Positions 27,048 to 56,941 of a stretch of 64,000 nt of DNA are shown here, one piece after another. The stretch's first letter is position 1; each line of letters begins with the position of its first letter. The position numbers and the translations under genes are program-made. The notes under the pieces are model-generated. The model was not told the DNA's origin. It saw only the letters and a program-made list of their open reading frames with translations, and made no database searches. Source of the stretch: Leptolyngbya sp. SIOISBB (GTDB lineage Bacteria; Cyanobacteriota; Cyanobacteriia; Phormidesmidales; Phormidesmidaceae); the NCBI GenBank assembly GCA_010671905.1, contig JAAHII010000001.1:3038001-3102000 (forward strand), given 5' to 3'.

Positions 27048-27449
27048 TTAACTCTCTCCCTTAACGTCGTGATAAACAGCAGTGGCCCAAAAGCTAAATT
27101 CTCGTGCGACGGTTAAACCCAAGCCAGTCAGCCCCAGATAGTCTTCAACATCCAACTGGCTGAGCGTCCCAAGACCATCCTTACCATGGATGCTTTGTTT
27201 GCCTGACAGCTCCTGTAAACAGTCAAAATAAGCCTTGACGACTTGCTTTTTACCTAGCTTTTCGTCACTAATTGCTTTCTCCTCGGCCTTTAAACGAAGT
27301 AAGCCCCAGGTTGCTAAATAGGTATAAAGCTCCACGGCTTGGCCTTTTTGCTGTTTGAGTAATGGATCATCTTTGCTGCGATCGCCTCGCAACTCGGTCA
27401 AAGCTCTATATACAGGCGTTGCGATCGCCCTTGGATCAAGTACTTCCAT
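27048..27449 (-). CDS. cmr5: Cmr5, small subunit of the type III-B complex
   Basis: 133 residues, all helical, with the Cmr5 pattern of an N-terminal repeat region (RAIATPVYRALTELRG), LYTYLATWGLLRLKAE and a C-terminal amphipathic helix (GLGLTVAREFSFWATAVYHD). Cmr5 lines the inner filament that contacts target RNA. Its stop abuts the cmr6-cmr1 start. About 120 bases separate it from cmr4. Confidence 0.82.
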   Translation of the reverse strand: MEVLDPRAIATPVYRALTELRGDRSKDDPLLKQQKGQAVELYTYLATWGLLRLKAEEKAISDEKLGKKQVVKAYFDCLQELSGKQSIHGKDGLGTLSQLDVEDYLGLTGLGLTVAREFSFWATAVYHDVKGES

Positions 27450-27567
27450 TAATTGACCTCAATTTGACGCTTAACGATAAATATCTAGACAATGCTCAAT
27501 TCCTTCTGCGCCCGTCGCAGAATGGAAACCTGATAACTCACAGTGATTCTTCTCGTGACTGCTCAAT

Positions 27568-28434: not shown

Positions 28435-28437
28435 GAG

Positions 28438-29733
28438 TTATTGACCCCAGAGTAAAATTCCGTAGTTAAGGGAGTTGAAGGTTTTGGCCCAGTTATCGTC
28501 TGCTTGCGGCAACAGTTTTAAGGGCGGGTCTGCTGCCTGAGCATGGGGTGGTAGTTGGCCAGACTGAAAGCGGTAGATGGTTCCTGGTGGGACGAAAGCC
28601 CGTTGTGGTTGAAAGGCAACATCTTTGTCTTGGCTGCCTGGTTTTTGAAACACCGACATACCGCCCCAGAGTAGAGGCCGATCGCCCACGCAACTCCGCA
28701 AAAATGGCTTCCAGGTTTCAGGGATGAGGCTGAAAAGTTCACTATCCGTGGTGGCCTCAGCCAAACCTGGTGTCAGCACATAGGCCGTTTCACGACCCGG
28801 TTGGGGCGATCGCAATTTCTCTAACTCATCCCAACCAGGAGGTGTACCCACCATGGGAGTAACGATTACCCGATGCCCCTCCCCGCCGAGTCGCACCACC
28901 TTGATGTTTGCGTCGAGTTCCTGACTAATCCCCGCGACCAGATGCCAATGAGGCTCCATACGGATAGCAACCTCAGTAAAGTAGCCTTCTTCGTCTGCAA
29001 CCTGACGAGTGCCGGGCTGTACTTTGATGTGAGGTAGCACCTGAGTACTCCAGGGATTTGAGTGGAAACAAGGCGCAGTCTCTTCAGAAGCCACCTTCTC
29101 AATGACCTCTCCCTGCAAATAACGCACTAAAATATCGGCCCGAATCCAGGGTTCAGGGCTTCCAGCAACCCCTTCCCAGGTTTCCGCATCGATCTGACGC
29201 AGATAGGCGTTTAAATCATCCCCGCTGTTCTGACCCAGTGCTAACCGCATCGGCGGCACCATCGGAGCTAGCTGATCGGGAGGAAAAAAATCTGGGTCAA
29301 TTCCCAAATATTGTCCTGAGTTCTCCCATGCTGGATTTTGTGGATCAAGTGGTTGAAACCGAGCGGTTCGCTGCCATTCCGTCGCTGTTTCTGTGAAATC
29401 TTCCTCGGGTTCACCCCCTCTGCTATTTTCAGTAGCTGTTTTGCGGGGCGTGACGCAGACTAAATCTTGGGGTGTTGGCAGCCATAGGGTTTCTGGCTCG
29501 CCAGGTGGCGCGTGAAGCAAAAAGGGACCGATGAATTTGAGATCTCGTTTCTTGTCGCGATCGCTCTCATCCCCAATCCACTTCGTAGCCGATCTCATCG
29601 CTTGAAACACGGTGATTGGCAGCGGCGGAAATTGTCCCTTGGCCCAGGAACCATCGCCAGGGCTGAAGGGTTTTGCCTCCCGCATCAGGAGTAGATCGAT
29701 GGGGTCAAGGGTGTACCAGTTCAGCTCAGACAT
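28438..29733 (-). CDS. cmr3: Cmr3 (Cas5-group) subunit
   Basis: 431 residues. The Cmr3 opening is clear (WYTLDPIDLLLMREAKPFSPG, followed by FPPLPITVFQAMRSA), as is the late LRSCVGDRPLLWGGMSVF and the Gly-rich GTIYRF region. Cmr3 partners Cas10 and holds the 5' handle of the crRNA. Its start overlaps the end of cas10 by 8 bases, indicating translational coupling. Confidence 0.88.
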   Translation of the reverse strand: MSELNWYTLDPIDLLLMREAKPFSPGDGSWAKGQFPPLPITVFQAMRSATKWIGDESDRDKKRDLKFIGPFLLHAPPGEPETLWLPTPQDLVCVTPRKTATENSRGGEPEEDFTETATEWQRTARFQPLDPQNPAWENSGQYLGIDPDFFPPDQLAPMVPPMRLALGQNSGDDLNAYLRQIDAETWEGVAGSPEPWIRADILVRYLQGEVIEKVASEETAPCFHSNPWSTQVLPHIKVQPGTRQVADEEGYFTEVAIRMEPHWHLVAGISQELDANIKVVRLGGEGHRVIVTPMVGTPPGWDELEKLRSPQPGRETAYVLTPGLAEATTDSELFSLIPETWKPFLRSCVGDRPLLWGGMSVFQKPGSQDKDVAFQPQRAFVPPGTIYRFQSGQLPPHAQAADPPLKLLPQADDNWAKTFNSLNYGILLWGQ

Positions 29734-32700
29734 AGCTCACCTCCGATGTTTCAGACTCAGGAACCTCAGGCTGTTTCAAGCCTCCGACCCAGTTCAATTC
29801 CTGTCGCCGTCGCGACACCCAAAAGGCTGTAAACCGCAGGAGTGCAGCGAGGTCTTTTAGTTCGGTTCCTTGCGCTTTTTCCTGTCGTTGTATAGCTGTC
29901 TGCTGTGCCGTCCAGGCCCAGGCTTCCCATTCAGATAGCCAATTCAGAATGGCGTTTTGCACATTCTCCGATAGCTGGTCTTCGCGACGCAGCAGGATCG
30001 CTTGCGCGGCTTGGCGGCAGAGGTGATGATTGGGCGTCACTTCCACATGCTTAGGTAGCTCCTCTGCCAGTCGGTTGAACACTGGGCTGAGGTCATACTG
30101 TGGATGGTCTTTGATCATTTCCCACCAAAGCTCTAGTAAATGGCCTTTCATCAGGGCTTCCAAGGTATTGCCAGAGCCATAGACAATACGGAAACAAAGA
30201 CCATCTTTAGGGGGAATCTTGGCCCCTGCATCAGGGGGACTACCTCCTAAGAGCTTTTTGGCCCGTTCTTTTTCGGCTTCCCAAAGGTTTTCAAGCACGG
30301 TGGGGAGCGGCACGCTTTTGTGAGCAATGATGATACCCATGCTCATGGTGGCCCCTTTCCCCATGGTGAATAGGGGACGGTTGGGCAAGTGTGATATCTT
30401 CTCTGGATAACGGGGACGCCAGTAGTCACCGACGTCTTGAAACTGATCGCTAGGTTCTTTGCCACCCGGATCTTCTCCACCACACCAGGCAGCGCGGAGC
30501 GATCGCACATAACCTGGTAAATCAGCCAACGGCAGTGCTACCAACACATCATCCCCACCGCTGTAGATGACTTTGCCGCAGTACCGATGCTCGGTGAGAT
30601 GGGGGACTAATCGGTTAGAGAAGTCAAGCAGGGCACGGTTCAGACCAACGTGGGTAGCAGGCCCCATCCGCTTTTTAGTGTTAGTGAGGAAGTCACTCCA
30701 AGCTTCGTCCTCAATCAAACTGTGGTTGACCAGATCTTCCAGCAAGTACTCCTTGTAGGAATGGAGATTACGACCGTTGACGTATTGGCCCATGCCATCG
30801 CCATCGGCTAAGAGCAGTACCCACCAATCGGAGGGACTACTATCCCCAAACCCGACATCCTGATGAGCTTTACTCACTAAACCGCGCAAGGTAGCTGTGA
30901 CGTCTTCTGTTTCACCAGTTTCCTGCTGGGGCTTTGAGTCTTTGTTCAGGGTCAGATCTTGAGCCAGCCACTTACTGTAAAACATGACGCCATTCAAGTT
31001 TTTTCGGGAATAGCGTCTTCTAGATCCTTCAGGATTAATTTTCCGATCTGTTTTCGCGATATTAGTCGGACGGATACGGGTCACTAACTTGAAGGCCCGA
31101 CGCTGCCTGGGCAAATTCTCTCGGATTGACTGCTCTAGTACTTGCCAGTATCGTTCAGCTACCTTGGGATGATCATGAATGAATCGCCCAGCTGCAATTG
31201 AGCTAGTGTTCGGAAATCTTGAAAAGAATTCATACCTGAGCTGAATACTCTGTTCAATTTTGAACTTCCGATTGGGTTGCTGAAGGTCAACTACTTGCTC
31301 TGTTGATTCCTCAGCTTTTTGATGTCTTTCAATAGATTCTCGCCGCTCGCGAATCCGTGTTTGGGTTTTTGAAACATCAATTCCTAACGCTTCGGCCACA
31401 CCACCGTAAATCCAGGCCATCCGTTTGGTGAGTTCCAGGGCGTTTAAGCGTTCAGAACCATCGAATAAGCCCGGATAGGCCAGTGACATCAGCTTCCAGA
31501 ACATACGGATGGAACCAGCCGCCATGCCCCGACCATGTTTGAGACGACCTTCATAGTGCAGGCAGGGATGGAGAGCACTGAATTGTCCCGATAAGCTCGA
31601 TCTCTCACCCGGTGCAATGGGGATTTGCCAGCGACGGGTATTTTTGATGGCCTGCATACTTTGCCCCAAGCGAGCTTGCAGGCTGCCCCACCAAGTACCC
31701 ACGTTCAATGTCTGGTAGGCTTGCTTTTCGGCAGGTGTAGGTAATGCTTCACGAGTCAGGGCGATCGCATTCTGCTGGTCGATCCAATCCTGATCAGAAG
31801 CAGCCGCTGCCAAGACATTTTCGGGATGGCCCAAGGGCACGGCAACAAAGTAAGGTTGCCAGGTGTTCTCAATCTGGGCACGCCAGAGTTTATTCCACTC
31901 CCAGCAGCCGTGCTGTTGATACTTTCTCAGTTCCGTTTGGTAAGTATCGTGTTCTGACTCTGGAAACAGATCCTTTAACGTCTTCCAGGCTTCATCAAAT
32001 CCCTGATCAGAGAGGTGCTCAATCACGCGAGTTTTAATGTGTTCGCGCACCTGCTTAGCAATGTCGCACCAGATATCCTTTAGTTCTTTTTGAAGGGCTT
32101 GCCCCAGGGCGATCGCCTTTTCTTTGCTGGGCACCAGTGCCGTGATTGTATTTGGGAAACCCGCAGTGCTCAAACTGGCAGACTCACGGCGATTAAACAG
32201 ACTAACTGGGTCAACATCAATATCGGGATTCTCTACATTTTTGAAGAATGATTTGAAATCTGAATAGCGGTTTACCAACAGTGCATCAATGATCTCTTGC
32301 CCCCAGAGAGAAGGGGTGATGACGGCATCGGGACCGTATTCTTGAGCGATGTACCAGCAGAGTTTCACACTTAGGTAGTGCAGCATGTAGGAGCCCGACC
32401 AAAAATCCACCAACTTGCGGGAGGCTTTGATGAACTCCTGCACAGGGGAGAAGGTAAACAGCAGCAGGTGAGGTTTTTGGGCCTCATTCTCTGGTTGCCA
32501 ATCGGATGGAAACATGGCCCCTGACAGAGCCGCGACGGTGCTGTTGTAGCTGGGGATAGGGCAGTCGGGCAGAATGCGGTGGGCGGGATTGAGGAAAGCT
32601 GTTTCGCGGTTTTCCCGCAGTTCTGGATAAAACCGCCAGCACCACCAATACAAGCGCTTCAAGGTTTCGGTAGGATCATTTGCCACTTCAAGGGCTGCTT

Positions 32701-33046
32701 TGGCAGCTTTGATCGCCTTTACACGCTCCTTGTCATTTAACGACTGAATCCTGGTGAGCTGTTGCGATTGGCCACTGATGGGATGGCGAACTTCAACTTC
32801 ATCAGGTAATGCCGACGCTGGCTGAAGGTTAGCGCGATCAGAAGCACTGCCGATGTCGCTCAGCAGGGGTCCCGCGTTTTTCCACCAGGTATCTACGCCC
32901 AAGTTGCCGAGTTCGGGGATTTCTTGGGCTAGGTCAGCAAAGAGGGTGCCACCGGGTTCTTCATCTGGAGCATCTCGCAGCAAAGCATAGAGCTTACGGG
33001 CGTAAAACGCCTGCACATTGCCTGACGGTTGGTTTTGTGTGGTCAT
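29726..33046 (-). CDS. cmr2: Cas10/Cmr2 with active GGDD palm, no HD nuclease motif
   Basis: 1,106 residues from the ATG at 33046, which has AGGGG upstream. The Cmr2 signature LFTFSPVQEFIKASRKLVDFWSGS lies near residue 200. The palm motif YSGGDDVLVALP (GGDD at residues ~830-833) is intact and should make cyclic oligoadenylates. Where other Cmr2 proteins have the PDH...DH nuclease residues, this one reads ILPDCPIPSYNSTVAALSG, so the HD-type DNase is apparently lost. First gene of the operon cmr2-cmr3-cmr4-cmr5-cmr6/1-CARF-HEPN-WYL. Confidence 0.92.
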   Translation of the reverse strand: MTTQNQPSGNVQAFYARKLYALLRDAPDEEPGGTLFADLAQEIPELGNLGVDTWWKNAGPLLSDIGSASDRANLQPASALPDEVEVRHPISGQSQQLTRIQSLNDKERVKAIKAAKAALEVANDPTETLKRLYWWCWRFYPELRENRETAFLNPAHRILPDCPIPSYNSTVAALSGAMFPSDWQPENEAQKPHLLLFTFSPVQEFIKASRKLVDFWSGSYMLHYLSVKLCWYIAQEYGPDAVITPSLWGQEIIDALLVNRYSDFKSFFKNVENPDIDVDPVSLFNRRESASLSTAGFPNTITALVPSKEKAIALGQALQKELKDIWCDIAKQVREHIKTRVIEHLSDQGFDEAWKTLKDLFPESEHDTYQTELRKYQQHGCWEWNKLWRAQIENTWQPYFVAVPLGHPENVLAAAASDQDWIDQQNAIALTREALPTPAEKQAYQTLNVGTWWGSLQARLGQSMQAIKNTRRWQIPIAPGERSSLSGQFSALHPCLHYEGRLKHGRGMAAGSIRMFWKLMSLAYPGLFDGSERLNALELTKRMAWIYGGVAEALGIDVSKTQTRIRERRESIERHQKAEESTEQVVDLQQPNRKFKIEQSIQLRYEFFSRFPNTSSIAAGRFIHDHPKVAERYWQVLEQSIRENLPRQRRAFKLVTRIRPTNIAKTDRKINPEGSRRRYSRKNLNGVMFYSKWLAQDLTLNKDSKPQQETGETEDVTATLRGLVSKAHQDVGFGDSSPSDWWVLLLADGDGMGQYVNGRNLHSYKEYLLEDLVNHSLIEDEAWSDFLTNTKKRMGPATHVGLNRALLDFSNRLVPHLTEHRYCGKVIYSGGDDVLVALPLADLPGYVRSLRAAWCGGEDPGGKEPSDQFQDVGDYWRPRYPEKISHLPNRPLFTMGKGATMSMGIIIAHKSVPLPTVLENLWEAEKERAKKLLGGSPPDAGAKIPPKDGLCFRIVYGSGNTLEALMKGHLLELWWEMIKDHPQYDLSPVFNRLAEELPKHVEVTPNHHLCRQAAQAILLRREDQLSENVQNAILNWLSEWEAWAWTAQQTAIQRQEKAQGTELKDLAALLRFTAFWVSRRRQELNWVGGLKQPEVPESETSEVSYV

Positions 33047-33734
33047 TATCAACCCCTATGGCTGAAGGTGTTTCAACGTTAACAGTGGTGTTCTCAGAAT
33101 TCTGGAAGTCTGATGCGAATGACCGGATTTGCGCAAAAGTGATGCCTTCCCAAGACGAGTGGCCTTAACCTCAGGTCGCACGATCGCGGTCAGCAGATGC
33201 TTTTAGCCTGATACGAAATTTTGGAAAGCGATCGCCCCTATGCCTTCATCCCCCCAGCAGTGTAGAGACTGAAGGATGGCATCCCCCCATCCCCCCATCT
33301 CCTCATCCCCCTCACTCAAGCCAGGAGGAAGTTGTAGCAGAGCATAAAGTTTGCAGCGGTAAACATGGTCAGAGTGTGACAAGCGGAACCTCTGAATCTA
33401 AAGACTTTGGGATGTCGCTGTTTACGGGTGGGTGCGACATCAACTTAAGTGCGGAAACACAACTGAGAATGGGATTTTTGCCGTTGGCTGTTCCAAGGTA
33501 CGCGGAGTTGCAAATGAGGCCCGGAAAGTTTCAGATTTTCTTCGACAAGGGGTTTATACAACGTTACTTGGTAGATAATTGAGGGTATTAGAAGCGTCTA
33601 AAATGCTTACAGAAAAAGGATTTTATGGTTTTGATAGTGGTGCAACCAAGCCGAAAAGCGGGTAAGTGGTGACTGTATTAAAAAGTCGAGGTGACATAGT
33701 GACGCAAGGAGGGAACGAGATCGCTACAATGCTG
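33047..33734. other. Intergenic region between cas10 and the CRISPR leader
   Basis: About 690 bases with no supported gene. It holds a C/T-rich tract at ~33280-33316 and must contain the leftward promoter of the cmr operon. Short frames here show no coding character. Confidence 0.5.
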
Positions 33735-33893
33735 ATTTTCTCGTCATCCTCCTTGAATCCTTTGATGCATATAGGCTTGGGGCGAATTCGCGATCGCCTT
33801 ATTGAGAATTATTTGCAGAGTTTTGCTACAAAGCCCATCCACCTTGTGTTTTTACGCTACGCTTCAGTCAGGGAAAGTCTTTCAAAGGCCGCT
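33735..33893 (+). promoter_or_regulatory. CRISPR leader of the main array
   Basis: The sequence immediately upstream of repeat 1. It shares with the two solitary units an ordered series of blocks: CTCGTC, GAATCC, a TAGG/TTG/GGG region and TTATTGAGAA..ATTTGCA....TTTTGC (33800-33830). Shared blocks upstream of all three loci fix the array orientation as rightward. Confidence 0.75.
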
Positions 33894-36800
33894 CCCAATA
33901 ACTTCTTCGGAAGTTGAATTAATGGAAACTTACCATAAAAGTCATGATTTCCGAGAACAAATACCCAATAACTTCTTCGGAAGTTGAATTAATGGAAACG
34001 GTTTAAATTTATTGGGGTACATTTTAAAATAAACTTGCCCAATAACTTCTTCGGAAGTTGAATTAATGGAAACTTGCTTACAGCTCTTTGAAACGCCTTC
34101 TTAACCGAAACCCAATAACTTCTTCGGAAGTTGAATTAATGGAAACTGGGAAAAGCAATTCTAGCCAAGTATCTTTACGGCACCCAATAACTTCTTCGGA
34201 AGTTGAATTAATGGAAACATCGCAAATCTCAAACAGCACCTGGCGCTGTTGCTCCCCAATAACTTCTTCGGAAGTTGAATTAATGGAAACCAAAATAGCT
34301 GAAACAGCTCCTTCTTTAACAGGGCCTACAGCTTATGGGCCTAGCTCCCAATAACTTCTTCGGAAGTTGAATTAATGGAAACACAACTACAAATAAAATT
34401 TCACCACTCTCTTCATTCCCCAATAACTTCTTCGGAAGTTGAATTAATGGAAACTTGTATTTTTAGTTTCTAGGGTATACTCCCCTTCCAAAGCCCAATA
34501 ACTTCTTCGGAAGTTGAATTAATGGAAACACTAGCCAAATTTTCGGAGAATTGGATAACCTAACCACCCAATAACTTCTTCGGAAGTTGAATTAATGGAA
34601 ACCCGAGTCACAGACAACAAGCGTAGGCAAATAGATATTGGTCCCAATAACTTCTTCGGAAGTTGAATTAATGGAAACTATCAAGAGGTTAAAGCGGCTA
34701 AATATAATCTCAGCTCCCAATAACTTCTTCGGAAGTTGAATTAATGGAAACATAGTGAGGGCTTCGAACGACTGAAACTCTACCCCATTTCCCAATAACT
34801 TCTTCGGAAGTTGAATTAATGGAAACCTCTCGAACCGGAAACTTAATGTCGGTGACATAGCCTCAATGACTTCTTCGGAAGTTGAATTAATGGAAACTCC
34901 ACACGTGAGAACATCTCATGCAGAGAAGGAGCATCCCAATAACTTCTTCGGAAGTTGAATTAATGGAAACCTCAGTCGTGATGTAAAAGCTTGGCTCCGC
35001 ATCTGGCCCCAATAACTTCTTCGGAAGTTGAATTAATGGAAACGTGTGGATTCTGACTAAATCCCCTATTCGATAGTTCCCAATAACTTCTTCGGAAGTT
35101 GAATTAATGGAAACTAATAGTCTTGACTGGCGGCACCAAGCAGTCCGGTGAGCCCAATAACTTCTTCGGAAGTTGAATTAATGGAAACACGTGCTGATGC
35201 GTCAGTGTGTTGAAGTGATCATTGAACCCAATAACTTCTTCGGAAGTTGAATTAATGGAAACTTCCCCACACCTCGCCGCTACGCCCACTGCGACTCCCC
35301 AATAACTTCTTCGGAAGTTGAATTAATGGAAACGATACTTGTTGTGCCGACGATAAGCCAGCAATACCCCCAATAACTTCTTCGGAAGTTGAATTAATGG
35401 AAACTCCTGCGGGAGAAACCCTGCCCTGGGTTTTCGCATCCCAATAACTTCTTCGGAAGTTGAATTAATGGGAACCCTGCCAAACCTGCACGACCAGAGA
35501 TAGTTCGGCAGCCCAATAACTTCTTCGGAAGTTGAATTAATGGAAACGCAAATGAAGCGGTGAAACGAGCCTCAGTGTAATAACCCAATAACCCAATAAC
35601 TTCTTCGGAAGTTGAATTAATGGAAACAAATTGATAGCTCAGTAGAGCTGCCAACCCCCCTAAACCCCAATAACTTCTTCGGAAGTTGAATTAATGGAAA
35701 CCTACGTCATTATCTGGCGGAATGAGCGGGTCTGGGCCCCAATAACTTCTTCGGAAGTTGAATTAATGGAAACGTTGACGATCGGGTTTGTGGTGATACA
35801 CAACCAGTCCCCAATAACTTCTTCGGAAGTTGAATTAATGGAAACATCCCCCACCTTCACAAACTGCCCCTGCTCATTCACACCCAATAACTTCTTCGGA
35901 AGTTGAATTAATGGAAACTCCGCCTTTGTGGAACTGTGCCCCACTAGCACCGGCCCAATAACTTCTTCGGAAGTTGAATTAATGGAAACCAATCACCACA
36001 GGGCAGATCCACCGCCATTCCCACCAATCCCCAATAACTTCTTCGGAAGTTGAATTAATGGAAACGATCATCGGTGTCACCCTGAATCTCTTTATCTAGG
36101 TCAACCGGCCCAATAACTTCTTCGGAAGTTGAATTAATGGAAACTCATCAAATGACTCGTGTGATCTGCTACGTAAAAGCCCAATAACTTCTTCGGAAGT
36201 TGAATTAATGGAAACTAGGAATTATCCTCAAACTGAAGTCGAGTGTCGAGGCCCAATAACTTCTTCGGAAGTTGAATTAATGGAAACTGTTAACGGTTGT
36301 AAACCATTGTGAAAAATGTGATCCCCCAATAACTTCTTCGGAAGTTGAATTAATGGAAACGGGTTGTGGGGTAAGTGAATGTAAATACTGCTGAGCCCCA
36401 ATAACTTCTTCGGAAGTTGAATTAATGGAAACGCGTTTAAGATATTCCTAATTCCGGTATTGACCCACCCAATAACTTCTTTGGAAGTTGAATTAATGGA
36501 AACATAGGGGCAGTTTTTAATAGGGCAGTCTTGGAGCTTGAAGCCCAATAACTTCTTCGGAAGTTGAATTAATGGAAACCAGTATCAAGGACAATTCTTG
36601 AATATTTGACTGAAATTCCCCAATAACTTCTTCGGAAGTTGAATTAATGGAAACCGCGAAGTAATCGGCCAATAATTTGGCATTGGTGTTGACCCAATAA
36701 CTTCTTCGGAAGTTGAATTAATGGAAACGAACAATGCCCATGAATGTGCCTGCACCAGATGGCCCAATAACTTCTTCGGAAGTTGAATTAATGGAAACTG

Positions 36801-38257
36801 TTTTTAGCCGCAAACCCCGAGGGCACTGAACTTCCCAATAACTTCTTCGGAAGTTGAATTAATGGAAACTCCATTCCTGGGCCGGCACAATGCGATCGCC
36901 CTCTGCCCAATAACTTCTTCGGAAGTTGAATTAATGGAAACACCAACATCATTGAGATCGCCAGGTCAATCGTGCGAGCCCCAATAACTTCTTCGGAAGT
37001 TGAATTAATGGAAACGCGATGGACATCGGATTATCCATGGCGTGGCAGGCAGCCCAATAACTTCTTCGGAAGTTGAATTAATGGAAACTCATGCCTTGGT
37101 TCTGGGCCAAGTTTGTTTATTGGAGCCCAATAACTTCTTCGGAAGTTGAATTAATGGAAACAAGATAAATCTATCTCCTTGCTTGCTAAAGCGTCTATCC
37201 CAATAACTTCTTCGGAAGTTGAATTAATGGAAACATGGAATTTGAAGATTGGAAAAAGTTTGATGATGAAGTGCCCAATAACTTCTTCGGAAGTTGAATT
37301 AATGGAAACTCTTCAAAACCGACATATGTTTGATAGTCGTAATGCGCAACCCAATAACTTCTTCGGAAGTTGAATTAATGGAAACGAAATGACCTCGCAA
37401 CCCAACTCGCGAATCCATTGCCCAATAACTTCTTCGGAAGTTGAATTAATGGAAACATGAAGTCCACGCCCCTGATAGCGTCATGGCGCGGCGGCCCAAT
37501 AACTTCTTCGGAAGTTGAATTAATGGAAACAGGTTGGTAAACTCAAGAATTAAACCTCCACCCTTAACCCAATAACTTCTTCGGAAGTTGAATTAATGGA
37601 AACCCGCTGAGGCTCCGCTCGTCGCAAGTGGTCGCTGACACCCAATAACTTCTTCGGAAGTTGAATTAATGGAAACTAAAAGCCGGAATCTGCGGCACAT
37701 CTTGAATGAGCTGGCCCAATAACTTCTTCGGAAGTTGAATTAATGGAAACAAGCGCGTGGCAGCTTCCGCGTCCTCGAAAGTCAACGCCCAATAACTTCT
37801 TCGGAAGTTGAATTAATGGAAACGCCTTAACCTGTGCGTCACTTTTTAGCGATACCGTCAACCCAATAACTTCTTCGGAAGTTGAATTAATGGAAACTGT
37901 TGTAGCTCCTCAGTGCTAGGAGCGTCGAACAACCCAATAACTTCTTTGGAAGTTGAATTAATGGAAACTCTTGAATAGGACTGATAAAATCAAACGTTGT
38001 TTGAACCCAATAACTTCTTCGGAAGTTGAATTAATGGAAACTCTTGAATAGGACTGATAAAATCAAACGTTGTTTGAACCCAATAACTTCTTCGGAAGTT
38101 GAATTAATGGAAACTGCTCTACAGCGTCTTTCAACTCTGGAACCGTTCCCCAATAACTTCTTCGGAAGTTGAATTAATGGAAACAAAGTCGCCCTTGCCT
38201 TGCGACGAGTTTCTTGGTCAATCCAATAACTTCTTCGGAAGTTGAATTAATGGAAAT
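33894..38257 (+). CRISPR. CRISPR array, 60 repeats / 59 spacers
   Basis: 36-nt repeats beginning CCCAATAACTTCTTCGG and ending GAATTAATGGAAAC, period about 73. I count 60 repeats from 33894 to 38257. Each repeat contains AACTTC-TTCG-GAAGTT, a 6-bp stem with a UUCG loop. Variant repeats are at 34861 (CCTCAATGAC start), 35440 (ATGGGAACC end), 36468 and 37933 (C to T in the loop, TTTGG). The last, at 38222, ends GGAAAT, marking the leader-distal end. Spacers are mostly 35-40 nt; the one at 34291-34346 is 56 nt. Spacers 37969-38005 and 38042-38078 are identical. At 35584 a partial repeat start (CCCAATAA) precedes the full repeat. Confidence 0.98.
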
Positions 38258-38292
38258 GGCGGATCTCATGTATATATGAGATCCGCCATTTC
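38253..38292 (+). other. Terminal hairpin of the main CRISPR array
   Basis: A perfect 17-bp stem, GAAATGGCGGATCTCAT (38253-38269) with its complement at 38276-38292, loop GTATAT. The 5' arm begins inside the last repeat (GAAAT). Similar hairpins follow both solitary repeats. It may terminate or protect the pre-crRNA; only a weak T-rich stretch follows. Confidence 0.8.
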
Positions 38293-38499
38293 TTTCAGAT
38301 ATATAGATATTTTAGTTCATTTGCACCTCGCAGATCTTGACGAAATACAGGCGTATTATTTTGCCAAAAGCCGTATTTATACCAAGTGATTTTGCTGTAA
38401 CTATTGGGGGTAATAGGGACAAGAGATCGCATCGAAAATCTCAGCCAAACCGCATCAACACATTTGCTGAGTTACTTTATTGCAGCGCTTTTGGTGATC

Positions 38500-40161
38500 A
38501 TGATGAATGCTACCAACACGCCCATTCAGCAATCCGAGCCGATTAACGTCAGTGCGCTGAATGCACTGATCTACTGTCCCCGACTGTTCTACCTTCAGGA
38601 AGTCGAAGGCGTGCGAGAAACCACCGCCGACATGTATGCCGGACAGCGCCTACATGCCGAAGTGGCCAAAGAAGTCGGGGGCGAGTGGCAGCAGTGGGTT
38701 TTAGAAAATGCTGAATTAGGCTTGCGCGGGCGAGTCGATGCGCTGAAAACTCATGCCGGAACCACTGTGCTGTATGAGCATAAGAAAGGCCGCAGTCGTC
38801 GAGATGAGCAGGACGAACCGCAAGCTTGGGAGAACGATCTCATTCAACTGCTCGCCTATGCCTGTTTGGTCGAGGCAGACCTGGGCCTTACTGTCACAGA
38901 AGGACGCATTCGCTATCACGCCGACGAGGTTACCGTCACCGTGGCCCTCACTACAGCGGGTCGTGAGGCCGTGCAAGCCGCTCTACACCAGGCTCGTCAA
39001 CTACAGACTGCAACCCAACGACCGCCTATTACCCCCCATCGTCATCGGTGCAATGGCTGCTCCGCAGCAGCAGTTTGCCTACCCGAAGAAACTCGCCTCG
39101 CCCAAGGGGCAAACGCACCCGCCCTACGCCTGTTTCCAGAAGATGACGAACGGATGATCATCCACGTCACCGAAGCCGGTACTCGCGTCGGCAAAAGCGG
39201 CGACCAAATCAAAATCACCAAACGCGACGGCACTATTAAATACCTGCCCTCGCGTCAGATTGGGCAACTGGTGCTACATGGCTATGTGCAAATTTCGACT
39301 CAGACTCTGTACTTTTGTGCCGAGCAAGACATCGGTCTGCACTACATCTCCGGCGGTGGGCGCTATCAGGGCAGCTTGCGGCCTTACGACCCGCAAATCC
39401 AGCGGCGCTTGCGTCAATATCAGGCACTCACGCAGCCAGACCGGTGTCTGACTCTGGCTCGCCAATTGGTGACCTGCCGCGGCCAGAGTCAGCGCAAATT
39501 TCTCATGCGGGGTAAACGCAGCGCTACCACCAGTGAGACTCTAAACAAGGCCATTGACCAGATGCAGCGCCTGCTCAAGCAGGTTCCCCAGGCTCAGTCA
39601 TTAGCAACGCTGCTAGGTTTAGAAGGTAATCTAGCCGCCCTCTACTTTGGGGCTTTGCCGGAATTGCTCTCCGAAACGGCTGCAGCTGACTTTCACTTTG
39701 CCGGACGCAATCGCCGCCCGCCGAAAGATCGCTTCAACGCCATGCTGGGCTTTGGCTACGCCTTATTGCTAAAGGATGTCATGAACGCCATTCTGGCGGT
39801 GGGGCTAGAGCCCGCCCTCGGCTTCTATCACCAGCCCCACCGCCAAGCCTCACCTCTAGCGCTCGACCTGATGGAAATCTTTCGCGTGCCCCTGGTGGAT
39901 ATGCCCATCATGGCCGCCATCAACCGCCACCAGTGGGATGCCGACAATGACTTTGAGATTACGAGCGATCGCGTCTGGCTCAGTGACTCCGGTCGGCGCA
40001 AGCTGATCGGCCTCTACGAACAGCGCAAAGCAGAAACCTGGAAACACCCCGTCATTCAATACTCCCTCACCTATCGCCGCCTCATCGAACTCGAAGTCCG
40101 CCTGCTCGAAAAAGAATGGACCAACGAAGGCGGCCTATTCGCCCAATTGGTTTTGCGCTAA
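38500..40161 (+). CDS. cas4-cas1: Cas4-Cas1 fusion (spacer acquisition)
   Basis: 553 residues from the ATG at 38500 (an upstream in-frame TTG at 38404 is less likely). The Cas4 domain has Fe-S cysteines Cys26 (YCPRLFYL), Cys184, Cys187 and Cys193 (CNGCSAAAVC), and RecB-type nuclease residues Asp80 (GRVDAL), Glu93 and Lys95 (EHK). The Cas1 domain has Glu375 (GLEGNLAALYF), His444 (LGFYHQPH) and Asp456 (LDLMEIFR). Cas4 trims prespacers and Cas1-Cas2 integrates them at the leader end. It lies directly downstream of the array and is followed by cas2. Such fusions are best known from type I-G and V-B; here it serves a type III locus. Confidence 0.93.
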   Translation: MMNATNTPIQQSEPINVSALNALIYCPRLFYLQEVEGVRETTADMYAGQRLHAEVAKEVGGEWQQWVLENAELGLRGRVDALKTHAGTTVLYEHKKGRSRRDEQDEPQAWENDLIQLLAYACLVEADLGLTVTEGRIRYHADEVTVTVALTTAGREAVQAALHQARQLQTATQRPPITPHRHRCNGCSAAAVCLPEETRLAQGANAPALRLFPEDDERMIIHVTEAGTRVGKSGDQIKITKRDGTIKYLPSRQIGQLVLHGYVQISTQTLYFCAEQDIGLHYISGGGRYQGSLRPYDPQIQRRLRQYQALTQPDRCLTLARQLVTCRGQSQRKFLMRGKRSATTSETLNKAIDQMQRLLKQVPQAQSLATLLGLEGNLAALYFGALPELLSETAAADFHFAGRNRRPPKDRFNAMLGFGYALLLKDVMNAILAVGLEPALGFYHQPHRQASPLALDLMEIFRVPLVDMPIMAAINRHQWDADNDFEITSDRVWLSDSGRRKLIGLYEQRKAETWKHPVIQYSLTYRRLIELEVRLLEKEWTNEGGLFAQLVLR

Positions 40162-44412: not shown

Positions 44413-44467
44413 CAACCCCAAAACCCTCTCTTGCTCAAGTTCAGAATTCACTCGGCGATGCCTTTCG

Positions 44468-44655
44468 GGGGATAGCGTCAAACGCTGAAACCCTGATGAT
44501 CTCGTCGGATCCCGCGAATCCCTTACTATGCCTAGGTTTGAGGGCAGTTCGAGGGTGGCTTATTGAGAACGATTTGCAAACTTTTGCAGCATTTTGGCTA
44601 TCCCCCGAAAATGCCGGGTTAAAATCCAGGCGTGGCAAGGGTTCTAGAACCCGGC
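44468..44655 (+). promoter_or_regulatory. CRISPR leader copy, solitary unit 1
   Basis: Closely similar over ~190 bases to 56686-56871 and, in ordered blocks, to the main-array leader (CTTATTGAGAACGATTTGCA...TTTTGC; GAATCC; TAGG.TTGAGGG). Both solitary leaders also share GGCTATCCCCCGAAAATGCC and CCAGGCGTGGCAAGGGTTCTA. Confidence 0.8.
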
Positions 44656-44691
44656 CCTCAAAACTTCTTCGGAAGTTGAACTAATGGAAAC
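44656..44691 (+). CRISPR. Solitary CRISPR repeat, unit 1 (no spacer)
   Basis: The 36 bases match the array repeat except at its 5' end (CCTCAAAACTTC for CCCAATAACTTC) and one T to C (GAACTAATGGAAAC). The UUCG stem-loop is intact. It sits at the leader junction and runs directly into a long hairpin. Confidence 0.88.
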
Positions 44692-44730
44692 GGCGGATTT
44701 TCAAAAATGAAAATCCGCCGTTTCCATTAG
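44681..44730 (+). other. Long hairpin capping solitary CRISPR unit 1
   Basis: A perfect 22-bp stem with a 6-base loop (AAAAAT, 44703-44708). The 5' arm starts with the last 11 bases of the repeat (CTAATGGAAAC) and continues GGCGGATTTTC; the 3' arm ends with the exact complement GTTTCCATTAG. The 3' arm is therefore an anti-repeat. Confidence 0.9.
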
Positions 44731-51486: not shown

Positions 51487-52644
51487 CAGGGTTGATTCAT
51501 TGTAGGAGACGAAAAATCCTCTCAACCTGGTTGGCGAGCTCTCGTAGAGCGGAAGTAACCGACTTAAACCCATTCAGTCGGATCAAATTGATAGTAATGG
51601 AACGAAACAGAGAGGCATTGAGCAAAGCGTTCGGGTTTCGGCCATACGTTTCATCTTCATGAAGGACGACATCTTTCGGCCAATGCAATTGATTTTCAAT
51701 GCTCCAATGCCCTCGCACCATATTGTTCCAGAGTCTTGCCGTGGTCGCTAGAGAGCTGAGATAGTAGGCTCGATGAATGGAACATTTGTCTGGCGTACAG
51801 CGCCGTCGTTCAACACAGAGGATGGTTTTCGTCCCCTGCCAGCGTTGAGGGTCAATCCCTTGGGCAGAATACACGCTGACCCGCCGCTGTTCTTGACGGC
51901 CATGGTGGCATTCGAAGGGGGTTGAAGCGGTTTGTCGCGGTTGGCGATAACGAATGATCGTCTCGATCTGACGATACAGCTTCCCCTGATTCTCTTTAAC
52001 CGCCACCACATAGTCATTGCCCCCCTCAACAATGAGCGACAGTGTTTTTTTTGCGCGTGAAGCGCATCCAGGCTGAAAGCCACTCCGCTCAAGTGGAGTT
52101 TCTCTAACAGATACTGCACAACCTTCAACTCGCTATTGTCGGTGGGGGTCAGCGCGGCTAAATCGACGGTGATCCCTTGGGCTTGAGCAAAGACACTGAC
52201 GAGTCCGACAAAGCGCGTTTTGCCGTCATCGTCGGTGATGGGTTGTCGAATCCGCTTCCCGTCAATGGCATATACATCCTCGTCTACCGTGAGATACTGG
52301 CGCATCCATTGAACAAAGGCGTCGCTGAGCGCGGCAAAGTCAAGCCCGATATGGGCTCGCCGGAAGGTCGAAAAGGACGGTACCGCGTCAAGGTCAATCT
52401 GCAATAAGTCAGCTACCTCGGAACCGTAGCGTTGCGCAAACTCCTCTAGGGGGCGATTCCCTCGATAACCCGCTAAATTTCCCATCACAATGAACACCAA
52501 AATGATCCACAGCGGATGGCGTTTCCCACGAGCATGACGATAGTCAGGGACGGTCTGTAGGGCTTCTATAAGGTTCATCGCAACATCAACGATACGGGTG
52601 CCTTACAGCTTAATTTTTTATCTCATCACATTGAATCAGCCCTG
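51487..52644 (-). mobile_element. ISAs1-family insertion sequence
   Basis: 1,158 bp. Terminal inverted repeats CAGGGTTGATTCATTGTA (from 51487) and, on the minus strand, CAGGGCTGATTCAATGTG (from 52644). A perfect 10-bp target duplication CCCCTCTCCC flanks it (51477-51486 and 52645-52654), typical of ISAs1, placing the insertion within a C/T simple repeat. Confidence 0.93.
51497..52578 (-). pseudogene. ISAs1-family transposase, frameshifted at an A-run
   Basis: N-terminal part: LQTVPDYRHARGKRHPLWII, YAIDGKRIRQPI (first DDE Asp), FSLDALHAQKK (second Asp). The C-terminal part, in another frame, begins NDYVVAVKENQGKLY and includes IENQLHWPKDVVLHEDETYG, with the Glu. The shift is at a run of eight A (52045-52052 on the minus strand); nine A would give ALHAQKKTLSLIVEGGNDYV. 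Slippage at this run could restore some full-length enzyme. Confidence 0.88.
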
Positions 52645-52792
52645 CCCCTCTCCCCACCTCCCCTGCACTTGCCCAACTCATACCCAACTCATACATCCCC
52701 CCATACAAGCCATATCCATACTCAAATACGCGCTTGCGAAGCTGGATTTATCGGCAAACACAAAGCCACTATTCACTCGGGAGGTACACCCC

Positions 52793-54769
52793 ATGAACGT
52801 GTGCGCAGAACATCTGCACGCTGCCTGGAACCTCGTCCAACGGGGCAGCCGCGCAGCCGGAGTAGACAACATCACCGTTGATTTATTTACCGGCATTGCT
52901 CAAGAACATATCCGACATCTGCATCACCAACTCCAGCGCGATCGCTATGTCGCTAGCCCTGCTAGAGGTTTCTTCTTACCCAAAAAATCGGGCGGCAGGC
53001 GGCTGATTGGCATTCCGACCGTGCGCGATCGCATCGTGCAGCGCTTTCTCTTGCAAGCCAGCTACCCCTATCTCTAAGACATCTTTAGCGACAGCGCCTT
53101 TGCCTATCGTCCTGGTCTCTCAATCTACGACGCCGTGGCCCAAGTCATGGAACGCTATCGCTTTCAGCCCAGTTGGGTAATTAAGGCAGACATTCAGCAG
53201 TTTTTTGACCACTTGTCTTGGCCCTTATTACTAAACCAACTGGAACAGATTGGCCTGTCGCCGTTTGAGGTCCAGCTCATTGAGCAACAGTTGAAATCCG
53301 GCATCGTCATTCAGGGGCGTTTTTGTCGGCTCCATCAGGGGGTATTGCAAGGGGGCGTGCTGTCGGGAGCCCTAGCCAACCTTTATCTACACGATTTTGA
53401 TCACCGCTGTTTAGAGGCTGACATTCCCCTGGTGCGCTACGGCGATGACTGCGTCGCGGTCTGCCAGAGCGGGTTAGAGGCAACCCGTTCTCTGGCCCTA
53501 ATGCAGGACCGGATTGAGGACGTCTACCTCAAACTGCATCCCGAAAAAACGCGCATCATCCCGCCCGGTGAGCCGTTCACCTTTCTGGGACACCAGTTTC
53601 ACAACGGCCAGGTGCAAGCACCGGCAAGGCGGCAGGCAGCGGGCAAACCGCAAAAGCGCCGGACTCCGAGTCCAGGATATGGCCCGCCTCAGGTTTGCAG
53701 CATCGTCAGGACACGACATGTCGCGTCCCCACCAACATCCACCGACAACTATTGGAGCGACGGTATGACCACCTTATATATCAGTGAACAAGGCGCTTAC
53801 CTCCGGGTCAGGCAGCAGCAGTTTCAAGTCTTTCATGAGCGCGAGTTGCGGTGCAGCGTGCCCGCCAGCCGCGTCAGCCACATTGTGGTGTTTGGCTGCT
53901 GCAATCTATCCCACGGAGCCGTGGGGTTGGCGCTGCGGCGACGCATCCCCGTGCTGTATCTCGCCAGCAATGGCCGCTACTTTGGCCGCTTGCAAACCGA
54001 AGGCCATGCCCAAATCGAATATCTCACTCAGCAGGTGCAAAAATTCCTCGATCCAGACTTTGCCTTGCGGCAGGCCCAGCAAATTATTCTGGCCAAGTTG
54101 CACAATAGCCGCATTCTGCTGCTACGGCTCAATCGACGGCGCAAGACCGAGACTGCCACCGAGGCCGTCGCAGCGCTGGCTGACCTGATGCCCAAAGTCG
54201 AAACTGCCGAATCCATCGAGTCCATGTTGGGATTTGAGGGGCAAGGGGCCAATCTTTACTTTCAAGCCTATGCCACTTTGCTAAAGGGCCGCTTCGCTTT
54301 TGAAAAACGCACCCGCCGTCCGCCCACTGATCCGGTCAACAGTCTGTTGAGTCTGGGCTACACGCTGCTATCGCAAAACCTGCATTCCATGGTAGAAGCC
54401 GCCGGATTGCATACCCACTTTGGCAATCTGCACCTGCCCCAAAAGAACCGCCCCTCTTTAGTCTGCGACCTAGTGGAAGAGTTTCGCGCCCCCATTGTTG
54501 ATTCCTTTGTGGGGTATCTGATCAACAAAAATATCTTTACGGAAGAGGACTTTACCCCACCCGATGCCCGAGGCGGGGTCTACCTCTTTCCGGATGCGCT
54601 CAAGAAATTTCTCAAGCATTGGGAAGAAACCCTCAACAAAACGGTGACGCATCCCCACACCGGGCACAAAGTCAATTACCGTCGCTGCTTTGAACTGCAA
54701 GTTTGGGAATATGTCTCCTGCCTCATGGGAGAGCGAGACAGCTATCGACCCATGAGGTGGGACAAGTGA
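52793..54769 (+). CDS. Reverse transcriptase-Cas1 fusion, interrupted by one in-frame TAA
   Basis: ATG at 52793 behind GGGAGGTACACCCC. With the TAA at 53075-53077 (codon 95) read through, the gene is 658 codons. RT domain: AGVDNITVDLF, KSGGRRLIGIPTVRDRIVQ, IKADIQQFFDHL (Asp133), LQGGVLSGALANLYLHDFD and YGDD (Asp218, Asp219). Cas1 domain from Met325 (MTTLYISEQGAYLRV): Glu482 (GFEGQGANLYF), His547 (FGNLHLPQ), Asp559 and Glu562/563 (CDLVEEFR). The TAA sits where YPYL-x-DIFSDSAFAYRPG needs a sense codon. As it stands, the N-terminal RT part is cut off; the Cas1 half could be made from an internal start (53135 or 53765). RT-Cas1 can acquire spacers from RNA. No Cas6 domain is fused. Confidence 0.9.
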
Positions 54770-55056
54770 GAAACCCCACGTTATACCTCGTCTGCTATGA
54801 CATTGTGCTGACTAAACGCCGTACTAAGGTCGCTCACTTGTTAGAAGGCTACGGCATGCGAGTTCAGAAGTCAGTCTTTGAATGCGTTTTAACCGAGCAT
54901 CAGTTGGCCATGCTCGATCGCAAGCTCAACAAATACATCAAAGCCAACGAAGACCAGGTGCGGTTTTACCCCATGTCAGCCCACACCCGCCGCAAGGTCA
55001 ACATCCTCGGGCTACAGCCCGCGCGCCAGATCGACGACGCTGCCTTCATCGTCTAA
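54766..55056 (+). CDS. cas2: Cas2 (with RT-Cas1)
   Basis: 96 residues from the GTG at 54766, which overlaps the RT-Cas1 stop (GTGA). Cas2 pattern: LYLVCYDIVLTKRRTKVAHL, LEGYGMRVQKSVFECVLTEH, VRFYPMSAHTRRKVNILG. It differs clearly from the cas2 at 40292, so the two adaptation modules have separate origins. The overlap implies translational coupling to the Cas1 half. Confidence 0.93.
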   Translation: MRNPTLYLVCYDIVLTKRRTKVAHLLEGYGMRVQKSVFECVLTEHQLAMLDRKLNKYIKANEDQVRFYPMSAHTRRKVNILGLQPARQIDDAAFIV

Positions 55057-55190: not shown

Positions 55191-55613
55191 ATGTCGATTC
55201 ACGTCATCGCCTCCTATCAGCAACTGCCGGTTTACCAAATGGCCTTTCAGGGGTCGACTACTGTTTACCACTGGGCGCAGCCCCTGTTGGCAACCTCAGA
55301 TGCCGATGTTATCGGACAGTTGTTAACCCTCTCTCGCGCTATTTGTGCTGACATTGCCGCCGCTTGGAGCCAACGCCGACAACGCGCTGGGTTTATCAGT
55401 CACCTCAGCACTGCGCACCTCGCCGCCACCGAAATGCAGAGCTGGATCGAAGCCGCGATCGTCACTGGCGCTCTCACCCCCGACACCGGACAAGATTTGC
55501 ATGACCACTATCGCGACCTCTCCACCGCACTCGATCAACTCATGGCCACCGCTGTCGCTGTGCCGCAACTCTCCGAAAAAACCTCTGTAAACGCCCTCCC
55601 CGCCACCGCCTAG
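55191..55613 (+). CDS. Four-helix-bundle protein (PF05635/Avd-like), divergent
   Basis: 140 residues; ATG at 55191 behind AAAAAGGAGATCCAACC, a strong ribosome site. Helical throughout: LPVYQMAFQGSTTVYHWAQP, LSRAICADIAAAWSQRRQRA, FISHLSTAHLAATEMQSWIE, matching the order of the 23S-IVS/four-helix-bundle family (YQ-A, R-S-I-x-A-N/D-I-A-E/A-A-W, F-x-x-L-x-x-A-x-x-E/T). DGR accessory protein Avd, which binds a reverse transcriptase, belongs to the same fold. It lies 134 bases after cas2. A role beside RT-Cas1 is inferred from fold and position only. Confidence 0.75.
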   Translation: MSIHVIASYQQLPVYQMAFQGSTTVYHWAQPLLATSDADVIGQLLTLSRAICADIAAAWSQRRQRAGFISHLSTAHLAATEMQSWIEAAIVTGALTPDTGQDLHDHYRDLSTALDQLMATAVAVPQLSEKTSVNALPATA

Positions 55614-55871: not shown

Positions 55872-56258
55872 ATATCTAAAGACTTCATCACCACCCACCA
55901 AGAACTCCTCGTTTACCAACTCGCCTTTGAAGCCGCCATGCAGATCTTTGATTTGGCCCAAACCTTTCCCGAAACCGAGCGCCAACTACTGACGGAACAA
56001 ATGCTGCGCTCATCGCGCTCGGTGTGCGCCAACCTGGCAGAAGCGTGGCAAAAGCGGCGCTACAAAAAAGCCTTTGTCGCCAAACTCAATGAGGTCGAAG
56101 CGGAAGCTGCCGAAACTCAAGTCTGGCTGGAATTTGCCATCACCTGTACTTATCTAGAGGCCGAGGTGGGACAAGAGCTGTTTCATCAATACCGGGTGAT
56201 TTTGGCAGGGGCTAATCGACTGATTCAGCAGGCTGATGCCTGGGTGGTGCCCTCATGA
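55872..56258 (+). CDS. Four-helix-bundle protein (PF05635/Avd-like)
   Basis: The family opening ISKDFITTHQELLVYQLAFE, AAMQIFDLAQTFP is followed by LTEQMLRSSRSVCANLAEAW, QKRRYKKAFVAKLNEVEAEA, AETQVWLEFAITC: a near-consensus member. The natural start is an ATA at 55872-55874, after ACAGGAACC, where an ATG is expected. It is either a rare start or a start-codon mutation, in which case the ATG at 55938 would give a shortened protein. It overlaps the next gene by 4 bases (ATGA). It pairs with the divergent member at 55191. Confidence 0.83.
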   Translation: MSKDFITTHQELLVYQLAFEAAMQIFDLAQTFPETERQLLTEQMLRSSRSVCANLAEAWQKRRYKKAFVAKLNEVEAEAAETQVWLEFAITCTYLEAEVGQELFHQYRVILAGANRLIQQADAWVVPS

Positions 56259-56704
56259 GCCGCCGCCGTCGCAAGCACAAAAAGCGGTTTGCCTGTGGGC
56301 ATCGCGGGTTTGGGCAATACTGTCATCGTTGCGCCGCTCGGCAAGCCCGAAACCGAGCCCAACTAGCTAGAAAAGAGCGCCAAAGAGTGGAGTGGCAGGC
56401 CACCTTTGCCGATGATGCAATTGATCTCAGAGGATTACCCAGGCATATTGCGCTTAAAACTCGACAGGTGTTGACTGAGTTATCAGAAGGCACCCATTAC
56501 TGGGAAGTGTCGGGCAAACGCCTACACATGATCCGCGAGGTGGTGCGGATTCCGATTACCCGACGTTATCGCCTACTATGTCACCACGATGGCACGACGG
56601 TAAAACCGCTGAAGGTCATGTCTCATGAGGAATACAATCCCCTGTTTCGTAACCCCAAACGGCTGTTGGCCAAGCTGTTTTCGCGGGATAGGTCGAAACG
56701 CTGA
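56255..56704 (+). CDS. Zinc-ribbon protein, basic, of unknown function
   Basis: 149 residues. A very basic N-terminus (MSRRRRKHKKRFACGHRGFG) contains a Cys-His/Cys-Cys knuckle, CGHRGFGQYCHRC. The C-terminal part (LSEGTHYWEVSGKRLHMIRE, VVRIPITRRYRLLCHH) resembles the core of RelE/ParE-like small RNases. It is coupled to the four-helix-bundle gene by an ATGA overlap, so it belongs to the RT-Cas1 module's operon or tail. Nucleic-acid binding is a reasonable inference. Confidence 0.65.
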   Translation: MSRRRRKHKKRFACGHRGFGQYCHRCAARQARNRAQLARKERQRVEWQATFADDAIDLRGLPRHIALKTRQVLTELSEGTHYWEVSGKRLHMIREVVRIPITRRYRLLCHHDGTTVKPLKVMSHEEYNPLFRNPKRLLAKLFSRDRSKR

Positions 56705-56871
56705 AACCCGCATAACTTCGTCGGATCTAGCGAATTCCTTATGCTGCAAGGGTTTGAGGGTGTTTTACAAGGCGTTTATTGAGAACGATTTGCAAATTTT
56801 TGCTGCATTTTGGCTATCCCCCGAAAATGCCAGGTTAGCATCCAGGCGTGGCAAGGGTTCTAGGACCCGGC
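56686..56871 (+). promoter_or_regulatory. CRISPR leader copy, solitary unit 2
   Basis: Closely similar to 44468-44655 (blocks AAACGCTGAAACCC, TCGTCGGATC, TTTATTGAGAACGATTTGCA, GGCTATCCCCCGAAAATGCC, GGCAAGGGTTCTA). It overlaps the very end of the zinc-ribbon gene. Confidence 0.8.
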
Positions 56872-56907
56872 CCTCAAAACTTCTTCGGAAGTTGAACTAA
56901 TGGAAAC
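56872..56907 (+). CRISPR. Solitary CRISPR repeat, unit 2 (no spacer)
   Basis: Identical in sequence to solitary repeat 1, including CCTCAAAACTTC and GAACTAATGGAAAC, so the two solitary repeats share variants absent from the main array. Confidence 0.88.
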
Positions 56908-56941
56908 GACGATTTTGTACATGTACAAAATCGTCGTTTCC
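56902..56941 (+). other. Long hairpin capping solitary CRISPR unit 2
   Basis: A perfect 40-base palindrome: GGAAACGACGATTTTGTAC pairs with its complement around AT. The first six bases are the repeat's 3' end (GGAAAC). Same design as 44681-44730 and 38253-38292, with different stem sequence. Confidence 0.9.

Follow-up and report, generated by a model that had tools for sequence, protein, structure and literature searches.

The 64,000-nucleotide (nt) stretch of Leptolyngbya sp. SIOISBB analyzed here (contig JAAHII010000001.1, positions 3,038,001 to 3,102,000; hereafter the window) contains at 56679-56941 a unit built of a leader, one 36-nt repeat of the clustered regularly interspaced short palindromic repeats (CRISPR) type and a perfect 40-base palindrome. 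We refer to it as unit 2, a similar unit further upstream being unit 1. The palindrome forms a trailer hairpin that is a recurrent end piece of type III-B CRISPR arrays with this repeat, and its inner part evolves by paired changes. The hairpin probably stops the last repeat from giving rise to a useless guide RNA. The explanation we favor, with moderate confidence, is that unit 2 is the array of the adjacent module encoding a reverse transcriptase (RT)-Cas1 fusion, emptied to leader, terminal repeat and trailer, and that its hairpin would block an extraneous CRISPR RNA (crRNA).

The repeat of unit 2 contains an internal stem-loop (AACTTC-TTCG-GAAGTT) and has GGAAAC as its 3′ end (56902-56907). 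A preliminary description of this DNA, made from its letters alone, had reported the 40-base palindrome as perfect. This was confirmed, with two 20-nt arms of 100% complementarity spanning 56902-56941; the outer six pairs of the hairpin use the repeat's own 3′ end. When folded as RNA, unit 2 reached a z-score of -5.2 and unit 1 one of -7.2, and in both cases 0 of 200 shuffles folded equally well. No Rfam family scored above threshold in the window, and the below-threshold matches around unit 2 were weak and to unrelated families only. An IscB-type or other structured RNA, first suspected from the long leader stem, was disfavored by the Rfam search and by synteny.

Units 1 and 2 lie 12,216 base pairs (bp) apart. 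Their likeness, put forward in the same description, was upheld (identities of 77% across 82 nt and 89% across 166 nt), as was the statement that the stem sequence differs between them while the shape is retained; the hairpin of unit 1 has 23 pairs and takes 11 repeat nt into its stem. With at most two mismatches, the repeat core is present in 62 copies in the 8.3-Mb genome, 60 of them in the main array and two standing alone in units 1 and 2. The main array closes with a hairpin of like plan, which makes the hairpin a feature of array ends. The terminal repeat of this array ends in GGAAAT; its final base is T in place of C, and the partner base is correspondingly A in place of G. The earlier idea that the hairpin marks a special, spacer-less unit is not supported, since it also caps the 60-repeat main array beside cas4-cas1 and spacer-bearing arrays of relatives. 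Having one repeat each, units 1 and 2 fall short of an array definition that asks for at least two repeats with unique spacers; their leader, repeat and synteny mark them as arrays with zero spacers or as remnants of arrays. Their leader is shared with true arrays in the genomes G026, G036 and G043, at 85-91% identity over query positions 140-231 (G and L numbers denote genomes and loci). Repeat-level matches were also present in three plasmids. That the hairpin is a general feature of array ends in this genome was ruled out by the ends of other repeat kinds (L171, L174, L175, L176, L177 and L179), which showed no such stem and a best score of 8; in this set, the rows L175 (8 repeats) and L179 (13 repeats) do not represent real ends, as another repeat follows, and L170 and L173 are cut.

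In relatives, the same hairpin recurs behind arrays of very different length. At the level of the order, 63 genomes including the present one were searched and 12 gave matches, with the hairpin standing behind arrays of 63, 45, 26, 26, 24, 7 and 2 repeats. By eye, 10 of 18 complete ends were capped and 2 more imperfectly, with L075 and L077 omitted from the count as cut ends and L082 and one match in L084 as poor repeat matches. A covariance-model search of the class covered 388 genomes, of which 23 matched; in G083, which belongs to another family, the hairpin was found on all three arrays in the stretches read. A pattern scan of GTDB genomes added 12 stretches. Here, the matches without a further repeat were capped in 5 of 5 cases, namely in RM1_1_2, Nodosilinea sp. 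LEGE 07088 (two), Phormidium willei and Phormidium sp. OSCR, the hairpin of RM1_1_2 being bulged, so that the script scored its inner 8 pairs only. The matches inside arrays scored at most 8, except one in L135 with 13 pairs. RM1_1_2 (G061; L073:6767) also has a leader, repeat and hairpin with zero spacers, and its relative G060 has 7 repeats at a like place beside cas1.

When a stem with at least four repeat bases and a score of at least 12 was counted as a cap, a threshold picked after the scores were seen, 15 of 46 terminal repeats but only 1 of 968 internal repeats were capped (Fisher p 9e-21). The 46 ends include some interrupted by N or by the edge of the locus, as well as a few repeats that are solitary or foreign (L119, L128), with five further cut ends left uncounted, and 15 of 46 is not a prevalence, because hairpin-containing queries favored capped arrays. 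In some uncapped arrays it is the last repeat itself that is altered (L118, L120 twice, L121, L123, L128 and L130). A distinct terminator-like hairpin follows the last repeat in some arrays, L123, L127 and L128 according to the stem score and L120 by eye. It looks as if these ends dealt with the same difficulty in another way.

Selection for structure had been proposed in the preliminary description, and covariance analysis of homologous hairpins indeed revealed paired changes. Across six aligned ends, 96.4% of cells were paired and 9 of 17 hairpin pairs had changed on both sides, and no pair had changed on one side only. None of 500 shuffles attained the real values for pairing, for the count of pairs or of cells changed on both sides, or for the covariation score, which was 0.354 versus 0.036-0.101 in slid controls. 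A first alignment of 11 sequences was dropped for the pair counts because hairpins of other lengths were shifted by one column; model and count use six of those eleven. Over 15 hairpins, counted by a custom script that omits G061 (bulged) and G003 (imperfect, 57 bits in the covariance-model search), the inner pairs comprised 173 Watson-Crick, 1 G-U and 2 mismatched pairs (n=176). Pairing with the repeat involved positions 32-35 in all 15 hairpins, position 36 in 13, position 31 in 13 (two as G-U), position 30 in 4 and position 29 in 3, so that pairing with the repeat ends at GGAAAC.

The gene order of G043 is informative as to what unit 2 represents. First come cas10, the main array and cas4-cas1, next a 15-repeat array and a large gene that looked NACHT-like by eye; rt-cas1 and cas2 follow, then two genes of the 23S_rRNA_IVP family (IVP), a ParE-like gene and finally a 26-repeat array with hairpin. 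Units 1 and 2 occupy the positions of the last two arrays. Spacer-bearing arrays behind the ParE-like gene were likewise found in G036 (26 repeats, capped; this contig holds IVP, ParE-like gene and array only, rt-cas1 being on another contig) and in G112 and G242, each with one IVP match. The G112 array has 34 repeats and ends in altered bases; that of G242 has at least 41 repeats and lacks a cap in the 72 nt remaining on its contig. As four relatives hold arrays of 26-41 repeats at that place, unit 2 is, on the evidence of synteny, most likely the rt-cas1/cas2 module's own CRISPR array with zero spacers, and its assignment to this module in the preliminary description stands. Recombination of the first with the last repeat would have removed all spacers, and none would have been gained since; an emptied, unfilled array fits the stop codon in rt-cas1.

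A type III crRNA consists of a repeat-derived 5′ tag followed by the guide, and with this order the spacer-less repeat of an array is the last one. Judging from Synechocystis, the GGAAAC bases would be the 3′ part of the tag. In the transcript, the hairpin would then hold the end of the tag, together with the opening "guide" bases, in double-stranded form, whereby the last repeat would yield no extraneous trailer crRNA to occupy Cmr complexes; the hairpin may also cap the 3′ end of the precursor. Flank-repeat pairing of the kind that characterizes crRNA-blocking hairpins is conserved in 15 ends and absent from 31 of the 46 read. The predicted openness of the last 8 nt was 0-0.35 at 16 capped ends, compared with a median of 0.54 for internal repeats, of which every third one on 14 locus strands was taken (120 in all). 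At 14 of the 16 capped ends it was as low as in at most 5 of the 120 internal repeats, and at L117 and L068 as low as in 11 and 16 of them.

Several points weigh against this reading of the hairpin and of unit 2. The genomes were found partly by hairpin-containing queries, and 31 of the 46 terminal repeats lack a cap. The uncapped ends include two of the four syntenic arrays (G112 and G242) and the 15-repeat array of G043, and at L122, L125, L126, L137 and L139 neither an altered repeat nor a separate hairpin was noticed. Over 13 nt the openness values overlap, with 0.12-0.58 at capped ends and a median of 0.64 in internal repeats. Except in unit 1 and G061, the hairpin spans 5-7 of the presumed 13 tag nt, which would leave cleavage upstream of the tag possible. 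In a fifth covariation measure, further pair types, 83 of 500 shuffles did at least as well as the real alignment, and the scarcity of G-U pairs exceeds what RNA pairing needs, which hints at a DNA-level process. As to unit 2 itself, its emptying is a parsimony argument from four relatives, and the array may instead never have been filled. The rt-cas1 stop codon may stem from a sequencing error.

The hairpin might be a mere transcription terminator or 3′-end stabilizer of the CRISPR precursor, its overlap with the repeat being incidental. Long stable stems at the 3′ end of arrays would suit such a role, as would the separate terminator-like hairpins that some arrays of the family carry past the last repeat. 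Unit 2 does have a T tract (5 T in 8 bases), making it the one hairpin in 15 that meets a simple T-tract criterion, so that for unit 2 alone the terminator call is borderline; the other 14 lack five T in the eight bases after the stem and do not qualify as intrinsic terminators. A terminator would also have no need to pair with the repeat, yet all 15 hairpins do, and their pairing breaks off sharply at GGAAAC. The choice of these 15 required at least four paired repeat bases but did not depend on where the pairing breaks off. The changed last repeat base of the main array, with its matching partner change, speaks against incidental overlap as well. Altogether, we regard a terminator or stabilizer role as unlikely, albeit one to be kept in mind.

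Alternatively, the palindrome could act as DNA, either as a cruciform or as a protein site. It would then show Cas1-Cas2 of the RT or Cas4 kind where the array ends, protecting the trailer or guiding the second integration step at the repeat-trailer border. The complementarity is near-perfect, with the single G-U among the 176 inner pairs, and the 3′ border of the repeat falls inside the palindrome. Moreover, the inner sequence of one G083 hairpin (L117) is the exact reverse complement of that of the Phormidium sp. OSCR hairpin (L144), as strand switching within the hairpin would give; the comparison of these sequences suggests that the hairpin switches strands in DNA, and the scarcity of G-U pairs agrees with this. 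On the other hand, no shared protein-readable sequence is apparent, and palindrome-less arrays of the family are rich in spacers, for example L127 with 93 repeats. We know of no adaptation system that needs a palindrome site of this sort, which we count against it. For these reasons a DNA site appears improbable to us. A more speculative and even less probable variant is that the array end is a self-renewing perfect palindrome: DNA strand switching would keep the drifting arms identical and the last repeat capped, the palindrome would mark the end for the integrase, and the empty units would be blank arrays ready for new memory.

Phages use solitary repeat units against CRISPR. A phage-borne solitary repeat, expected to be leaderless and on mobile DNA, was rejected here, as a leader is present, the synteny is that of host arrays and one exact pattern of the repeat had 0 matches in viral contigs. 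That unit 2 is a dedicated single-repeat element, either a regulatory or decoy RNA gene or a blank array held ready for RT-Cas1, is very improbable: leader, repeat and hairpin are kept in two zero-spacer copies here and one in G061, but synteny and leader are those of ordinary arrays, the viral contigs lack the repeat to the extent just given, and the hairpin conceals the tag that a decoy would need.

An emptied array that ends in a masking hairpin thus remains our preferred reading of unit 2, and as an array-end feature the hairpin extends beyond the RT-Cas1 module to which it had originally been tied. The main array lies beside cas4-cas1, G058 has a capped array in a genome without an RT match to our query, and the capped arrays of G060 and G061 adjoin a cas1 without RT. 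Judged from these gene neighborhoods, a tie of the hairpin to RT is not supported. It speaks against dismissing such a tie outright that G060 and G061 have RT-Cas1 elsewhere, that most capped genomes have an RT somewhere and that RT-like matches lie near the capped arrays of G083 (L116) and Phormidium sp. OSCR (L144).

The features of the window are listed in Table 1. The label rt-cas1 given in the preliminary description holds for the RT and Cas1 domains and had to be amended for a premature stop, which sits in the RT part; the downstream frame (53135-54769) retains YGDD and the entire Cas1 domain. RT and Cas1 domains and cas2 are thus all present, but the uninterrupted RT-Cas1 fusion that would, with Cas2, define an RT-Cas1 module is not. 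The rt-cas1 of G043 has no stop at the corresponding place. An uninterrupted homologue with 72% identity is encoded on contig C2 of the same genome, so that help in trans is possible. At ~222.5-229 kb of C2 (L170, L171) it forms a second rt-cas1-cas2-IVP-IVP module, whose array has the repeat GTTCAAACTCC...GGAAAC and no capping hairpin. Directly upstream of rt-cas1 in the window, two overlapping transposase-like reading frames (label by eye) lie on the minus strand at 51497-52578. The label of the gene formerly called a zinc-ribbon gene was amended as well, to a zinc-binding DUF7682 part plus a ParE-like toxin domain. The system is of type III-B, with cas10/cmr2, cmr3, cmr4 and cmr6 present and the main array adjoining. 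For Cas6, a search with one family only, PF10040, gave five matches in the genome and none within the window.

Table 1 Coordinates of CRISPR elements and genes in the window.
Feature	Position	Strand	Basis or remark
Unit 2 leader	56678..56871	+	sequence reading, comparison with leaders of relatives
Unit 2 single (terminal) CRISPR repeat	56872..56907	+	family of the 60-repeat main array
Unit 2 array-end hairpin	56902..56941	+	repeat end GGAAAC, 28-nt palindrome (56908-56935), GTTTCC (56936-56941)
Unit 1 leader	44463..44655	+	perfect inverted pair TTTCGGGGGATAGC / GCTATCCCCCGAAA
Unit 1 repeat and hairpin	44656..44730	+	repeat 44656-44691; hairpin 44681-44730
Main CRISPR array, 60 repeats	33894..38257	+	repeat search
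Main-array end hairpin	38252..38293	+	plan as in units 1 and 2; overlooked in the preliminary description
rt-cas1	52598..54769	+	in-frame TAA at 53075-53077
cas2	54703..55056	+	domain match
Four-helix protein, 23S_rRNA_IVP family	55191..55613	+	domain match
Four-helix protein, 23S_rRNA_IVP family	55938..56258	+	also weak bAvd match
DUF7682 zinc-binding and ParE-like domain protein	56255..56704	+	gene end overlaps leader start
cas4-cas1 fusion	38404..40161	+	beside main array
Type III-B effector genes cas10, cmr3, cmr4, cmr6	24918..33052	-	PADLOC

The leaders show further regularities. An inverted pair with members ~135 bp apart lies upstream of a -10-like box in both units (44463-44476 and 44597-44610 in unit 1; 56678-56691 and 56814-56827 in unit 2). 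In unit 2 it reads TTTTCGCGGGATAG and CTATCCCCCGAAAA, with one mismatch (read by eye), and is followed by TAGCAT at 56836-56841, the -10-like box (by eye), and by the near-palindrome GGGTTCTAGGACCC at 56855-56868; a sigma-70 scan of unit 2 returned no promoter. The pair is listed in 6 of 11 leaders of this kind, unit 1 but not unit 2 being among them, and its letters vary among genomes with the pairing kept, being TTTCGGGGGATAGC/GCTATCCCCCGAAA in unit 1 and TCGGGGTCTACC/GGTAGACCCCGA in G043. Possibly the two members are paired protein sites. The main-array leader (33780-33893) is without the element GGGTTCTAG, which the matching leaders of G043 and G036 carry before the first repeat (by eye). 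Tandem C-rich 8-base units (CTCCCCAT) stand between genes at 33280, 40165, 43470, 44340 and 51430 and elsewhere.

Leader-repeat hairpins block extraneous crRNAs in type VI (PMC13187072) and type II-A systems (PMC12080349). As in those systems, an array flank pairs here with a spacer-less repeat, which would stop a useless crRNA. Types VI and II-A, however, are class 2 systems with the hairpin on the leader side, as their guide comes before the repeat, whereas the present hairpin belongs to class 1, type III, and lies at the trailer end. Type V-A arrays face the same last-repeat problem, and 11 of 14 native terminal repeats are mutated (PMC6610086); where V-A mutates the repeat, the present arrays have a cap, although some uncapped arrays of the family look mutated as well. 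Within the single subtype II-C, terminators, guide hairpins and mutated repeats occur as alternative solutions, and the fate of such RNAs in other types is said to be still to be explored (PMC12080349); unlike the present hairpin, the II-C solutions lie upstream of the array, in a Cas9 system.

A further comparison is with Synechocystis CRISPR3, a type III-B system with a 13-nt tag (AUUGAUUGGAAAC), whose last repeat is cleaved and whose trailer RNA accumulates at crRNA length (PMC3575380). RNase E recognizes the stem-loop of the precursor and cuts the single-stranded part after it (PMC10989914). CRISPR3 resembles the present system in its cmr effector genes, a repeat ending in UGGAAAC, a similar layout and the absence of an annotated cas6 beside the III-B genes. 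At its array end in strain 6803 (record NC_005230) the last repeat is unmutated and without hairpin; unlike the capped ends described here, CRISPR3 is thus uncapped and has terminal crRNA-like RNAs (PMC3575380). The III-B locus of Arthrospira is likewise cyanobacterial and likewise has two adaptation genes, one encoding RT-Cas1 and the other a standalone Cas1; at this RT locus cas10 and cmr6 were noted to have decayed, and the words "hairpin" and "empty" were not found in the main text (PMC5513706). A literature search for leader-bearing empty arrays yielded one paper. No type III or trailer-end counterpart was among the literature matches listed, which is weak evidence of absence given the thin coverage of subscription literature.

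If the proposed role is correct, the control of extraneous crRNAs would extend from class 2 to type III systems and there act on the trailer side, opposite to where it acts in class 2, as expected from the tag-then-guide order. The hairpin would then also be a cheap sequence mark for the end and the orientation of such arrays. It would further show that arrays made of a leader and one repeat, which are invisible to array finders that require two repeats, exist beside adaptation genes.
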